This document shows positions 25,090 to 32,024 of a stretch of DNA of 64,000 nt, piece by piece; the first letter of the stretch is position 1; every line of letters begins with the position of its first letter. Under the pieces are notes generated by a model that worked only from the letters and a program-made list of their open reading frames with translations, was not told where the DNA came from and made no database searches. A program made the position numbers and the translations under genes. Source of the stretch: Cellulomonas sp. Y8 (GTDB lineage Bacteria > Actinomycetota > Actinomycetes > Actinomycetales > Cellulomonadaceae); the NCBI RefSeq assembly GCF_008033115.1, contig NZ_CP041203.1, positions 496,001 through 560,000 of the forward strand, given 5' to 3'.

Positions 25090-26736
<1,647 letters not shown>

Positions 26737-26820
26737 GTGGAACGCCTCTCCCCTCGCCGGCCGGTCTGCCGGATCGGGCACCAGAGTCGTGCGCGGCCGT
26801 TTCGCGACGGCGCCACCGGT

Positions 26821-26867
26821 GTTACACCGATGTGACGAGCGGTCCGCGCGCGTCAACATCGTGTTAC
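26821..26867 (-). promoter_or_regulatory. Two GlnR-like boxes upstream of amt
   Basis: GTTAC-N6-GTGAC lies at 26821-26836 and GTCAA-N6-GTTAC at 26852-26867, with 31 bases between starts. Half-sites of the form GTNAC spaced by six bases match the actinobacterial GlnR pattern (GTNAC-N6-GAAAC), although neither has the exact GAAAC half. They lie 85-131 bases before amt, a natural place for nitrogen control of amt-glnB-glnD. Inference from motif and position. Confidence 0.45.
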
Positions 26868-26910: not shown

Positions 26911-27999
26911 TCACCGCTCCTTCAACGCTCGGAAGACGGAACCGCGCCCCACCACGAGCAGCCCTGCTACCGGGAAGGTCGCGATGCTGACCAGCAACCG
27001 AGCGCAGTCGAGCAGGGTGAGATCGCGGACGACCTCGTGCGCGAGTTCCGGCGCAACCACGAGCGCCGCCCCTGCGATGCCGACGAGCAAGGGTGTGAGC
27101 ACGAGGACCACGGTGTCGACCGCCAGGAGCAACGCGATCGTGCCAGTGTCTGCGCCGAGCAACCTGTGCAGCGCGAAGTCGGCCCGCCGGGTGCTCCACA
27201 CCGCCAGGATCGCTGACAGCACCACCCCTGCGGCGATGGCCCACCACCAGCCTGACGCCCGTCCGGCCAGCTGGGACTCGGGATCGGCGGCTCTGGTGAA
27301 GTCGGCGAGCGGCAAGGGTGCCGACGCGGTGGAGGAGGACCAGGTCACGAGCGCGGCCAGCACGGCGTCTCGATGGCTGGGGTCGACGTCGACCAAGCAC
27401 CGGGTCCACACGGCCCACGGCGGGAGCCACGGCCAGGATGTGCCGGTCAGCGACCGGCTCGCGGGCTGTCCCCGTGCTGGGCACCGAGGCCACTTCCGCG
27501 CGGCCTCGTGAGCCCGAGGAATCCACCCAGGCGAGGCTGTGGCCCGTGCTCACGCCGGCGCTCGCGGCGAGATAGGGTCCCACAAGCACCTGCCCGGCGA
27601 GGGGAGCGGCCGTCCCCGGCCAGAGCACCTGGAGATAGCCGGACGTGACCTGGTCGAGCTCGTACCGGGCACCGGGTGCGGACACCAGGCGTACCGGCTC
27701 GGTCGAGATCCTGCCCCCGGCCGCTCGGACGCCCGTCCACGACCCGACGACGGCACACGTCGCCGCGTCGACCCCCGCGCCGCGCGGACCCGTGAGAGAC
27801 AGCACGAACCGGCCCGACTGCACGTGCTCGTCCCAGGTCGCGTGGATGTGGGACGTGTCGCGTGACGTCAGCACGAGAGTCGACGCCCCGCACGCACACG
27901 AGAGCACACCGCGACGAGCACGCTGAGGATCCACCGGGCTGTGAGATCGCGGACCGCCTCGCCCACGACATGGCGGAGCCGGGCGCGCGAGCGCGTCAC
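26911..27999 (-). CDS. FtsX/MacB-like ABC permease (two frameshifts as read)
   Basis: A probable permease partner of the ATPase just upstream. It starts at GTG 27999, overlapping the ATPase stop (GTGA), with RLRHVVGEAVRDLTARWIL then a hydrophobic helix. A large extracellular region follows in a second frame (from SCACGASTLVLTSRDTSHI to ~27470). It ends in the first frame with three hydrophobic segments (ASGWWWAIAAGVVLSAILAV, IALLLAVDTVVLVLTPLLVG, LLVSIATFPVAGLLVVGRGS). This one-helix, ectodomain, three-helix plan is the FtsX/MacB topology. One base seems missing near 27906-27912 and one extra near 27465-27475; they compensate. Read straight, the protein would stop after ~43 residues. The substrate is presumably the operon's peptide. 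Confidence 0.65.
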
Positions 28000-28652
28000 C
28001 GCACCCGTCCGTCGACCAGCTCCAGCACCGTGCTGCACCGCTCGGCCACCCAGTAGTCGTGCGTCGCGATGACGACGAGCCGGCCGGCGTCCTCGACCGC
28101 CAGCAGGGCGTCGACGACACGGTCGCGCGAGCGCGCGTCGAGCGACGCGGTCGGTTCATCCGCGATCACGATCGGCGCGCCCTGCGCCAGCGCACGCGCC
28201 ACCGCGACCCTCTGCCGCTCTCCGCCCGACAACCGCCGCACCTGAGTCTGCGCCCACTCCTCCATGCCGAGCTCCGCGAGCACCGCGTCCGCGATCGCGC
28301 ACGACCGTGCTCTCGTGAGTCCCTTGTGCAAGGGGCCGAGCGCGACGTTCGACCGGGCCGAGCGAGCTCCGAGCAGCGCGGTGGTCTGCATGACCCACGC
28401 TGTGTCACGGCTGTCCACCCGCGAGTCGGCGTAGCGGACCACACCAGCGCTGGCCGCGAGCAGACCCCCGATCACGGCGAGCAGTGTCGTCTTGCCCGAG
28501 CCCGAAGGTCCGACCAACGCCACGGAGCACGCCTTGGGCACACGGGCTTCAACCCCGTCGAGCACGCAGCGATCACCGAACGCGACCCGGATGCCCGACA
28601 CCGCCAGGCCTCCGGCGTACTCGCCCTCGACACCTCGAAGGGCGTCGCTCAC
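27996..28652 (-). CDS. ABC transporter ATP-binding protein (LolD/MacB type)
   Basis: A 218-residue stand-alone ATPase. Walker A is GPSGSGKTT (48-56), the Q-loop region is WVMQTTALLGARSARSNV, the signature is LSGGERQ (141-147), Walker B is IVIADEP (161-167) and the H-loop is H198 in IATHDYWVAE. It is closest to the LolD/MacB/FtsE branch, which energises FtsX-like permeases and mechanotransmission-type exporters. Start GTG 28652 overlaps the upstream gene's stop (GTGA), and its own stop overlaps the permease start, so it is fully coupled within the operon. GC content is visibly lower than in flanking core genes. Confidence 0.88.
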   Translation of the reverse strand: MSDALRGVEGEYAGGLAVSGIRVAFGDRCVLDGVEARVPKACSVALVGPSGSGKTTLLAVIGGLLAASAGVVRYADSRVDSRDTAWVMQTTALLGARSARSNVALGPLHKGLTRARSCAIADAVLAELGMEEWAQTQVRRLSGGERQRVAVARALAQGAPIVIADEPTASLDARSRDRVVDALLAVEDAGRLVVIATHDYWVAERCSTVLELVDGRVR

Positions 28653-29767
28653 CTCTCCGCCGCCGAACCACCGGGAACCTGCACGAGGTCCGAGGACGCG
28701 AGCCCGCCGACGACGACCGTTGTCGACACCCCGCCGGACCCGATGATCTCCACATCGACCTCGATCTGAGCTCCGGTCCGTTGCACCCGGACGCTCGGCC
28801 TCCCTTCTGGATCCACGTGCACCGCTGCTGAGGGAACGGCCCAGCTGCCGACCACCGGCTCTGAGACGGCGACGGCGTCGACACCGGCGGCGCCCGGTTC
28901 GATAGCGGCGGCGAGCACGAGCAGACTCGCGTCGTCGACACGGCGCCGGTCCTCGGTCAGTTCCATGGCGGAGCCGCGAACCCGGAGCTCGGCCTCGGCG
29001 GGCACAGTCCGCGCGTCCGTTCCGAGATCGACGCCCTCCGGGAGCATGGACGCGTCACCGTCATCCGGCACCGCCGCTTGACCGGTGACCACCGCGCGCG
29101 CCACCCAGTCCTCGGACGTGACCCGGGCTGCAACGAGGTTGGCCGCGCTCCGGAGGACCTGCGAACCGGGTGCAGGAGCAGGTGCGCCGACTACGAGGTC
29201 GACGGTCGTCACGACCAGCTCAGGTGCGGTCAGGTGCACGAACCACGCAGGGTCGAGGACCTCGGTCTGCGGCGCGCCCAGCTCGGTGGCGAGCGCACGG
29301 ACGCCAGCTGCGGTCTTCCGGTCGAACCGATCGCCCGGGCCGCGTGAGAGCCCACGCTGCTCGAGCAAAGCGTGCAGCACGCCGACATCCGGCCCTCGGT
29401 CGCCACGCCGGAGATGGCGCGAGAACGGCCGTTCACCAGCAAACCCGATGCGAGTCACACCGGCGACGACCGCCACCTGATCACCACTGCGCAGTACATC
29501 CCCCGCGCCCACGTGGAGCACCTCGACGATGCCGTCCCACGCCGGGGCCACGACGACGGGTCCCGCCGTCCATGACAGGGCCAGACCGAGCCGTTGCTCG
29601 ACCTGCCCTGACAGCGGACGGACGGTCGCCCACGCCGGCTCGTCGCCCGCGAGCCGGACACCACCCGCCTCGCGGCTCAAGGCTCCGACCACGGCCACGG
29701 GTCCGCCCACCCACACGAGGACGACCACGCCTGCGAGGGCCAGGCGCACCACACCGGGGGCGTTCAC
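28649..29767 (-). CDS. Membrane-fusion/adaptor protein with peptidoglycan-binding domain
   Basis: About 372 residues. One N-terminal membrane anchor (about 7-30) is followed by a lipoyl-like hairpin half (VVVAPAWDGIVEVLHVGAGDVLRSGDQVAVV), the signature of HlyD/MacA-type periplasmic adaptors. Then comes a PG_binding_1-like domain (LRRGDRGPDVGVLHALLEQRG through FDRKTAAGVRAL) and a C-terminal adaptor beta region. In a Gram-positive such a protein can link an ABC exporter to the cell wall. Start GTG 29767 overlaps the lipoprotein stop (GTGA); its own stop overlaps the ATPase start. A tandem GTG at 29770 is an alternative. Confidence 0.8.
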   Translation of the reverse strand: MNAPGVVRLALAGVVVLVWVGGPVAVVGALSREAGGVRLAGDEPAWATVRPLSGQVEQRLGLALSWTAGPVVVAPAWDGIVEVLHVGAGDVLRSGDQVAVVAGVTRIGFAGERPFSRHLRRGDRGPDVGVLHALLEQRGLSRGPGDRFDRKTAAGVRALATELGAPQTEVLDPAWFVHLTAPELVVTTVDLVVGAPAPAPGSQVLRSAANLVAARVTSEDWVARAVVTGQAAVPDDGDASMLPEGVDLGTDARTVPAEAELRVRGSAMELTEDRRRVDDASLLVLAAAIEPGAAGVDAVAVSEPVVGSWAVPSAAVHVDPEGRPSVRVQRTGAQIEVDVEIIGSGGVSTTVVVGGLASSDLVQVPGGSAAER

Positions 29768-30378
29768 CACGAGACTCCGATGCTCTCGAGCTCTGGACGC
29801 AGCCTGAGGGTGACGTCCGAGATGCACTCCGCGAGCTGGCTCTCAGCATCGCGTCCGATCCGGGACGCCATCTCGCGGGCGTTACGCACCTCCGCGGCTA
29901 TCGGATGCCCGTGATCAGCCATGCAGGCGAGGGTGTCGACCCGGATGTCGACGTCCATCACGGCATCGTGGGTGGAGACGTAAGCAGCCTGAACGGTCCA
30001 CAGGTGCTGTTGCGAGCAGTCGTCGCTGACGGCCCAGACGTCCTCCTCGGCCATCGCGCCGATGGGGAAGCCGAACTCCAGGGTCAAGTTATCGACCGGC
30101 GACAGCACGGGTTCGGTGATGCCGTTGGCTCCACGCTCGGCGCAGGCACGGGTGTTGTCGATCGCCTGCTCGTACTCGGCGGCTGTGACGACGCCGTCCT
30201 CAAGCAACCGGACCTGGCTGTCCCAGCCGTTCGCACGAGCCTCGGCTTCCGCCTCGGCGACGGATTGGTAGACGAGCTCCCGCACCACCTCACTCTCGTC
30301 ATCTCCAGGTCCGCACGCGGAGAGCACCATCCCGCCGCCCCCGAGGGCGACACCGATCAGGAGAGCGTGACGGCGCAC
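29764..30378 (-). CDS. Predicted lipoprotein of the peptide/ABC operon
   Basis: A 204-residue lipoprotein. The start GTG 30378 gives a short type II signal with VRRHALLIGVALGGGG and lipobox LSAC (Cys22), so it should be anchored outside the membrane. The mature part is acidic and mostly helical, with four further cysteines spread as NTRACAERG, SDDCSQQ, TLACMADHG and LAECISD. I do not recognise a named family. Its start lies inside the last seven codons of the peptide gene in another frame (22-base overlap), so translation is strongly coupled. Substrate-binding, immunity or chaperone roles are all possible; none is shown. Confidence 0.75.
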   Translation of the reverse strand: MRRHALLIGVALGGGGMVLSACGPGDDESEVVRELVYQSVAEAEAEARANGWDSQVRLLEDGVVTAAEYEQAIDNTRACAERGANGITEPVLSPVDNLTLEFGFPIGAMAEEDVWAVSDDCSQQHLWTVQAAYVSTHDAVMDVDIRVDTLACMADHGHPIAAEVRNAREMASRIGRDAESQLAECISDVTLRLRPELESIGVSW

Positions 30379-30716
30379 GACGGGCAGCCCTTGTGGCGTC
30401 CGGTCGTGTCTCCGAGCCCCGACGCCGCGTGCCTGGCGGTGCCCCGGACGCTCGGCGACGTCGTCCACTTGACGGCGCCCCCGTGGTTGAGGCCCGCTAC
30501 CAGCTTGTCGTTGCACGAGCCGCTGTAGTGACTGGTGACCGCCTGGCCGTTCGTCAGATCGCCCGAGCTCGAGACCCAGTTGTCGCCGCACGACCTGCTC
30601 ACGGCCCTGTTGAAGCCGAACGCCTCCGCCGGGTCGGCGTGGACGAGCACCGACCCACCGATGACCAGGGCCGTGACGGGAAGGACGGCGACGAGTCGCC
30701 GGAGGAAGGTGGGCAT
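30357..30716 (-). CDS. Small secreted Cys-containing peptide (bacteriocin- or signal-like)
   Basis: A 119-residue precursor with a clear Sec signal peptide: MPTFLRRLVAVLPVTALVIG, then GSVLVHA, cut probably after A26 or after AEA (A32). The mature part (~90 residues) has four cysteines (43, 68, 111, 114; contexts RSCGDNW, SGSCND, KGCPSC), is rich in Ser/Gly/Thr and carries several His. Size, secretion and the linked ABC operon recall lactococcin 972-type bacteriocins, but I do not see that family's aromatic/His pattern clearly, so I leave it unnamed. ATG 30716 follows GGAG at good spacing. It is the first gene of a five-gene overlapping operon. Confidence 0.7.
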   Translation of the reverse strand: MPTFLRRLVAVLPVTALVIGGSVLVHADPAEAFGFNRAVSRSCGDNWVSSSGDLTNGQAVTSHYSGSCNDKLVAGLNHGGAVKWTTSPSVRGTARHAASGLGDTTGRHKGCPSCAVTLS

Positions 30717-30824: not shown

Positions 30825-32024
30825 TCAGCCCAGGATGCCGTCCACGAACTCCTCCGGGTCGAACGGCGCCAGGTCGTCCGGCCCCTCGCCGAGCCCGACG
30901 AGCTTCACCGGCACGCCCAGCTCGCGCTGCACGGCGACGACGATGCCGCCCTTCGCGGTGCCGTCGAGCTTGGTCAGCACGATGCCGGTCACGCCGGCGA
31001 CCTCCGCGAACACGCGCGCCTGGTTCATGCCGTTCTGGCCGGTGGTGGCATCGAGCACCAGCAGCACCTCGGACAGCGGCGCGGTGCGCGTGATGACCCG
31101 GGTGATCTTGCCGAGCTCGTCCATGAGGCCGGCCTTGTTCTGGAGCCGGCCGGCGGTGTCGACCAGGACCACGTCGACGCCCTCGGCCGCGCCCTCCCGG
31201 ACCGCCTCGAACGCGACCGACGCCGGGTCGGCGCCGTCGCGGTCGGAGCGCACGGTGCGCACGCCGACGCGCGAGCCCCAGGTCTCGAGCTGGTCGGCGG
31301 CCGCGGCGCGGAACGTGTCCGCCGCGCCGAGCAGCACGGTGCGGCCGTCGGCGACGAGCACGCGGGAGAGCTTGCCCACGGTCGTGGTCTTGCCGGTGCC
31401 GTTGACACCGACGACCAGGACGACCGCCGGGACGGTCACGCCGTCCTCCCCGGTCTGCGGGGCGGTCGACAGGGTCCGGTCGAGCGACGGGTCGACCAGC
31501 GCCAGCAGCTGCTCGCGGAGCAGGGCGCGGACCTGGGCCGGGTCCTTCAGGCCCTGGACGCGGGCCCGGGTGCGGATCGACTCGACCAGGTCGGCGGACG
31601 GGCCGGCGCCGACGTCGGCGAGCAGGAGCGTCTCCTCGAGCTCGTCCCAGTCGTCCTCGGTCAGGTGGTCGCGGGACAGCACCTGGAGCATGCGGGCGCC
31701 GAGCGGCGAGCCCGAGCGGGCCAGGCGGTCCCGGAGCCGGGTGAGCCGGCCGGCCGTCGGGGCGGGGACCTCGAGCGCGGGGGCGGTCGCGGCGTCCTCG
31801 GGCGCCGGGGCGCCGGGCGCGGTCGGCGCCTCGGGGCCCGCGGCGTCGGGGACCGGGCGCTCGAGCGTCGAGGTGCCCGTGCCCGATCCCTCCGCGGGGC
31901 GCTCGTCGGTCCGGTCGCGGTCGCCCGCGTTCCGGCGCCGCTGGAGGACGGCAGCGCCGCCGCCGAGGATCGCCAGGGCCGGCACGCCGACGAGGAGCAG
32001 GTTCAGGAGGTCGTTCGAGTCCAC
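30825..32024 (-). CDS. ftsY: Signal recognition particle receptor FtsY
   Basis: The SRP receptor GTPase, partner of Ffh encoded at 21642-23246. An N-terminal hydrophobic helix (residues ~8-27) likely anchors it, followed by an acidic/Pro-rich linker (30-95) that is poorly conserved. The NG domain has P-loop VVGVNGTGKTT (205-215), DTAGRLQNKAGLMDEL, and TKLDGTAKGGI. At 399 residues it is normal for actinobacteria. The ATG is at 32024. It follows smc and a small membrane protein on the same strand, the usual smc-ftsY neighbourhood. Confidence 0.96.
   Translation of the reverse strand: MDSNDLLNLLLVGVPALAILGGGAAVLQRRRNAGDRDRTDERPAEGSGTGTSTLERPVPDAAGPEAPTAPGAPAPEDAATAPALEVPAPTAGRLTRLRDRLARSGSPLGARMLQVLSRDHLTEDDWDELEETLLLADVGAGPSADLVESIRTRARVQGLKDPAQVRALLREQLLALVDPSLDRTLSTAPQTGEDGVTVPAVVLVVGVNGTGKTTTVGKLSRVLVADGRTVLLGAADTFRAAAADQLETWGSRVGVRTVRSDRDGADPASVAFEAVREGAAEGVDVVLVDTAGRLQNKAGLMDELGKITRVITRTAPLSEVLLVLDATTGQNGMNQARVFAEVAGVTGIVLTKLDGTAKGGIVVAVQRELGVPVKLVGLGEGPDDLAPFDPEEFVDGILG

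Follow-up and report, generated by a model that had tools for sequence, protein, structure and literature searches.

A conserved secreted peptide, lipoprotein and MacB-type transporter cassette in Cellulomonas sp. Y8: a candidate bacteriocin-like antagonism system

Five genes encoding a small secreted peptide, a lipoprotein, a MacA-like adaptor, an ATP-binding cassette (ABC) ATPase and an FtsX-like permease lie together on the minus strand of the genome of Cellulomonas sp. Y8 (here G000), within the 64,000-nucleotide stretch that we analysed (NZ_CP041203.1, positions 496,001-560,000; hereafter the window, whose own numbering is used below). The peptide gene (30357..30716; 119 amino acids, signal-peptide-like N-terminus) is followed by the genes for the companion lipoprotein (29764..30378; 204 amino acids, GTG start, lipobox LSAC with Cys22), the adaptor (28649..29767; 372 amino acids, peptidoglycan-binding-like region), the ATPase (27996..28652; 218 amino acids, Pfam ABC_tran) and the permease (26911..27999), the frame of which is broken twice in the assembly. 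Successive genes overlap, by 22 bases between peptide and lipoprotein and then by 4, 4 and 4 bases, these last being three GTGA overlaps. The cassette is flanked by ftsY (30825-32024) on one side and by amt, glnB and glnD on the other. Its GC content is 71.2% against 75.1% for the window, with 2.9% of equal-sized windows equally low, and GC content at third codon positions (GC3) is 0.80-0.93 in the four intact cassette genes against 0.97-0.99 in ftsY, glnB, glnD, ffh and smc. An initial annotation had described five overlapping minus-strand genes, among them a secreted peptide and an LSAC lipoprotein, forming a stretch less GC-rich than the core genes and separating amt-glnB-glnD from ftsY; the overlaps agree exactly, and the flanks, the composition and the open reading frames (ORFs) of peptide and lipoprotein are as it stated. 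Promoter and terminator scans found none, and tRNA and Rfam scans within the window gave no match.

Two further genomes of the genus, G034 and G354, have the same gene order between ftsY and amt; in both, the permease frame is open and the 22-base overlap between peptide and lipoprotein also occurs. Given this recurrence at the matching site, the five-gene set is a real, conserved unit and more than a chance operon. The initial annotation had proposed co-occurrence in other genomes as a test of the system, and this test it passes: the order is kept in G034 and G354, and adaptor, lipoprotein and a secreted peptide also recur in genomes farther away. A check of 12 other genomes of the genus (G368 was left out) revealed an empty site, with a gap of ~160-375 base pairs (bp) between ftsY and amt and no cassette gene. 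Between G000 and G034, identity is 64% for the peptide, 66% for the lipoprotein, 57% for the adaptor and 63% for the ATPase; for the neighbouring ftsY and glnB it is 93% and 96%. Across the genus, the peptide profile matches 3 of 81 genomes and the lipoprotein profile 31 of 81.

The window peptide consists of a signal peptide and a mature part of ~87 amino acids, with cysteines at positions 43, 68, 111 and 114. Sec signal peptides were called here by a heuristic of our own, based on a hydrophobic stretch and an A-x-A site. In an alignment of nine sequences (the window peptide and eight relatives), Cys43, Cys111 and Cys114 are invariant. One relative, at locus L070, comes from another family of the same order (39% over 103 columns), and there too the peptide gene lies directly upstream of lipoprotein and adaptor. 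The window peptide gives no match to PF09683, TIGR01653 or PF03995 (Inhibitor_I36), and has no profile relation to three lactococcin 972 peptides. Its profile finds no match among PDB sequences up to E 1; the best structural match is PDB 9hkj, whose title is 'Structure of Formosin D' and whose chain of 85 residues was released in December 2025. No paper on this entry was found, and the top-ranked literature matches for 'Formosin' concerned, by their titles and abstracts, diterpenoids and unrelated words. P0009 bears the source name 'DUF2690 domain-containing protein'; this was set aside, as no Pfam family matched that protein at E 0.1.

The lipoprotein belongs to a family in which Cys22 (the lipobox cysteine), Cys79, Cys152 and Cys185 are invariant, and Cys121 nearly so, in 27 relatives. 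No Pfam family is matched above its cut-off by the lipoproteins of 27 cassette members. Trypco1 was considered and rejected, as it scores 20.7 bits against a cut-off of 24.6 and appears at E 0.01 in 4 of 27 relatives. The predicted structure is a helical domain (predicted local distance difference test score, pLDDT, 88.8) with no PDB match, and a search against plasmid records gave no match. In a phylum-wide search, with 10 candidates per genome scored, at least 7 of 296 genomes match. Under the same scoring of 10 candidates, one genome far outside the order (G426) has at least 10 matches to the lipoprotein profile.

The adaptor has an N-terminal hydrophobic segment, and its gene shares an operon, and a 4-base overlap, with that of the ATPase. 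The peptidoglycan-binding domain assigned to it in the initial annotation gives no Pfam match in the window protein itself, but PG_binding_1 matches three of eight aligned adaptor relatives; Biotin_lipoyl_2 is weakly matched in one of the eight. The ATPase was recognised correctly, with ABC_tran at 89.9 bits against a cut-off of 25. Among solved structures its best match is MacB (E 2.1e-29), with LolD also listed. The best NCBIfam model, TIGR03608 ('putative bacteriocin export ABC transporter'), scores 142.9 bits, well short of its cut-off of 254.85, and is not listed at E 1e-33 by the ATPases of three other cassettes (L029, L093 and L100); this filing was not used as evidence. The permease call holds in part: the C-terminal piece may be FtsX-like, with Pfam FtsX at 22.8 bits falling just short of the cut-off of 25.5, but the gene is not an open frame. 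The intact G034 permease matches no Pfam family at E 0.01.

Across the order, 104 of 297 genomes have a match to the adaptor profile at E 1e-8, which in many cases covers no more than part of it. By adaptor similarity 54 loci were selected; an ATPase match is present in 53 of the 54 stretches, and 38 were assigned a lipoprotein by a rule of our own. In a strict test on 37 of them, which included the window and G034, a Sec-type peptide ORF ending at most 150 bp from the lipoprotein start was found at 19; among other lipobox ORFs 1 of 28 had one, and among the other genes 31 of 464. A looser rule for an adjoining peptide ORF gave 27 of 49 against 13 of 66. We collected 28 peptides from 27 of the 54 loci, partly by eye and leaving out a candidate at L101: the Pfam families Lactococcin_972 and Inhibitor_I36 account for two each, and 24 match neither. 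A mixed profile built from all 28 was discarded, having obtained only matches of the signal-peptide type. Across cassettes, the lipoprotein family is constant and the peptide family changes. The cassette class comprises a Sec-type peptide, a five-cysteine lipoprotein, a MacA-like adaptor with a peptidoglycan-binding region, an ATPase and an FtsX-like permease. We found no name for it, and in full-text literature searches, with subscription journals mostly outside coverage, none of the papers listed describes the cassette in its title or at the start of its abstract.

A link to a known bacteriocin family comes from three loci (L029, L100 and L123), at which a Lactococcin_972 peptide above the Pfam cut-off is followed by lipoprotein, adaptor and ATPase. 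The lipoprotein set that includes these three is related to the window's set by profile comparison (94.0%, E 1.5e-7). With PF09683 as the starting point, 15 places were found in the order, spread over 14 of 297 genomes; the adaptor adjoins two of the 15, and nine have instead an ATPase together with an ORF that is large or split, as has been reported for lactococcin 972 loci (PMC11796350, accessible part). Lactococcin 972 peptides therefore have either of two types of partner set, and many different peptides are found with the cassette. The usual lactococcin 972-like locus is described as three genes for peptide, immunity and transport proteins, with roles that are unproven and, according to the authors, unverified for the partner genes of any locus (PMC11796350, accessible part). 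The cassette resembles the lactococcin 972 and streptococcin B loci (PF09683, TIGR01653, TIGR03608) in that a small Sec-secreted peptide comes first and an ABC transporter is presumed to confer immunity, as well as in the Lactococcin_972 peptides that hold the same slot in three related cassettes. However, the window peptide lies outside that family by sequence and, compared with the usual three-gene locus, the cassette adds a lipoprotein and a peptidoglycan-binding adaptor, with a permease of ~370 amino acids in intact relatives. We do not class the cassette as a member of the lactococcin 972 family.

Gene duplications provide a second line of evidence. The G034 cassette reads peptide, lipoprotein, shortened peptide, lipoprotein, lipoprotein, adaptor, ATPase and permease; peptide and lipoprotein genes are thus doubled as a pair, and one further lipoprotein stands alone. 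In G056 (L193 and L022), three lipoproteins lie ahead of one adaptor set, and among them are one peptide and a 47-amino-acid adaptor fragment; the outermost lipoprotein sits at the end of a contig. Immunity genes would be expected to look like this, as unpaired lipoprotein genes next to one pump set. The tandem lipoproteins of G056 (L193 being on G056:C70) also resemble a decayed tandem array.

The cassette is most likely a bacteriocin-type peptide with MacB-type self-protection, a known kind of system in a new form. More fully, we hold it just about probable that this is a bacteriocin-like antagonism cassette, in which a Sec-exported peptide is accompanied by a lipoprotein and a MacB-type ABC complex that give self-protection. 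This reading is in keeping with the Lactococcin_972 peptides in the same slot and with the duplicated peptide-lipoprotein pair, and the suggestion in the initial annotation of a perhaps bacteriocin-like peptide with the lipoprotein as immunity protein is largely borne out by the same two observations. The Sec route would carry the small peptide out of the cell, where it would fold; the mature form is probably a beta-sheet domain braced by disulfides, with the cell surface of closely related bacteria as its site of action. On the producer membrane, the anchored lipoprotein may bind or block the peptide that the cell itself makes. The adaptor, with its anchor in the membrane and a hold on peptidoglycan, would join the ATPase and the FtsX-like permease as a MacB-type mechanotransmitter, and this ATP-driven complex could push the peptide off its membrane or wall target, clearing the zone between membrane and wall. 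Antibacterial activity, immunity role, target and pumping direction are all presumed in this scheme. Several points weigh against it: the window peptide matches no bacteriocin family, 2 of the 28 slot peptides look like protease inhibitors (Inhibitor_I36), and the antibacterial activity of the peptide is something that we infer.

Three known systems may be regarded as functional analogues of self-protection by lipoprotein and ABC complex, namely YknXYZ, AS-48EFGH and NisI/NisFEG. Lantibiotic immunity by NisI and NisFEG combines an anchored lipoprotein with an ABC pump and is a working analogue of the cassette; there is, however, no known adaptor in that system and no sign of lanthionine genes beside the cassette peptide, and the likeness drawn here is one of function. 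To our knowledge, the YknWXYZ and AS-48EFGH cassettes include no lipoprotein or linked Sec peptide. The genes nisI and nisFEG are named as immunity genes (PMC4055356, accessible part), and YknXYZ is reported to protect Bacillus against its own toxin, with YknX binding peptidoglycan (PMC5985334, accessible part). YknWXYZ of Bacillus and AS-48EFGH of Enterococcus share with the cassette an adaptor, a separate ATPase and probably a MacB-type permease, in Gram-positive bacteria and in connection with an own peptide that is toxic or, in the cassette, presumed to be so, but their adaptors are not described with a region of the PG_binding_1 type in the accessible part of that source (PMC5985334). The likeness to MacAB and LolCDE lies in the ATPase, nearest to MacB with LolD also listed, and in the probably FtsX-like permease; in contrast to those systems, the cassette is without an outer-membrane duct and brings its own peptide and lipoprotein.

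The initial annotation had favoured a dedicated wall-crossing exporter, in which the lipoprotein would be a chaperone and the adaptor-ABC complex would take the peptide, once Sec has delivered it between membrane and wall, through the wall to the outside; even so, the peptide might be a bacteriocin. The gene order of peptide, lipoprotein and pump suits this proposal, as does the peptidoglycan-binding region in adaptor relatives; furthermore, adaptor-bearing pumps of the MacB type in Gram-negative bacteria export molecules that are protein-like, and AS-48EFGH is listed as a possible bacteriocin exporter (PMC5985334, accessible part). Yet a dedicated exporter is needless for a peptide that bears a Sec-type signal peptide of its own. 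Sec is also the presumed exit route of streptococcin B, a bacteriocin of the lactococcin 972-like kind (PMC11796350, accessible part), and a peptide of ~87 residues should diffuse through the wall. MacB-type transporters act on extracytoplasmic substrates and do not move substrates across the membrane (PMC5985334, accessible part). Protection is therefore likelier than export, and we regard the exporter as unlikely.

A sensing role is quite improbable in our view, with the peptide as a secreted signal and the lipoprotein and ABC complex as a BceAB-like receptor or processing machine. BceAB-type relatives of MacB do sense cell-wall antibiotics (PMC5985334, accessible part), and the lipoprotein is constant where the peptide varies, but no regulator or histidine kinase is seen adjoining the cassette in the window, L020 or L180, and many unrelated peptide families together with the lactococcin 972 cases do not suggest a pheromone. 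The Inhibitor_I36 matches and the FtsX-like permease would fit a role in envelope housekeeping or protection, whereby the peptide inhibits external enzymes (proteases or wall hydrolases) or modulates the wall and the ABC complex is an FtsEX-like regulator. The sporadic presence (in the genus, 3 of 81 genomes have the peptide) does not look like housekeeping, nor do genes of low GC content that change fast and occupy a site that is otherwise empty, and for these reasons we consider this very improbable.

Extending the bacteriocin-like reading, the cassettes may represent a modular antagonism platform of the Actinomycetales, a proposal that we put forward tentatively, as possible rather than probable. 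A constant chassis, consisting of the new five-cysteine lipoprotein family, the peptidoglycan-gripping MacA-like adaptor, the ATPase and the FtsX-like permease, would receive many unrelated Sec-secreted peptides, lactococcin 972 among them, with the lipoprotein as cognate immunity protein. If so, the chassis could help to uncover new bacteriocin classes among secreted peptides. The slot shared beside a constant lipoprotein and pump provides a directly testable immunity hypothesis for the partners of lactococcin 972-like peptides, and the cassette class gives a way to look for those small secreted peptides that gene finders and family libraries mostly leave unnamed.

The broken permease bears on whether the system of the window strain is intact. 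The start frame meets a stop after 43 codons; in a tblastn comparison with an intact relative (61.7% identity), the middle (~27907-27404) aligns in another frame and the end (~27483-26917) is back in the first. Intact relatives have a permease of ~370 amino acids. These two frameshifts could mean that the permease is a pseudogene and the system decaying, which we think rather unlikely. The neighbouring amt (25428-26859, minus strand) is also split, by one frameshift near 26510, and is intact in G034 and other Cellulomonas genomes. Moreover, stop-less same-strand changes of coding frame number 23 in 460 kb of sampled G000 DNA against 5 in 400 kb of its relative G006, a tally from a codon model of our own, which detected the amt shift and missed those of the permease. 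Residual indel errors in the assembly are thus a plausible cause of the break; both genes were analysed as assembled, with their frames unmended.

Among the loci examined, L028 (4471-5894) and L031 (5141-6556) represent a more distant version of the cassette, in which an Inhibitor_I36-type secreted protein, possibly a protease inhibitor, takes the place of the peptide and is followed by a 300-amino-acid lipoprotein, an adaptor and an ATPase fused to the permease. G000 itself holds a second cassette (G000:C1 ~1502940-1505560; L093 4940-7563), with a 115-amino-acid secreted peptide that is unrelated to the first, a five-cysteine lipoprotein, an adaptor and an ATPase. In its adaptor, PG_binding_1 is matched at 23.2 bits, the cut-off being 23.
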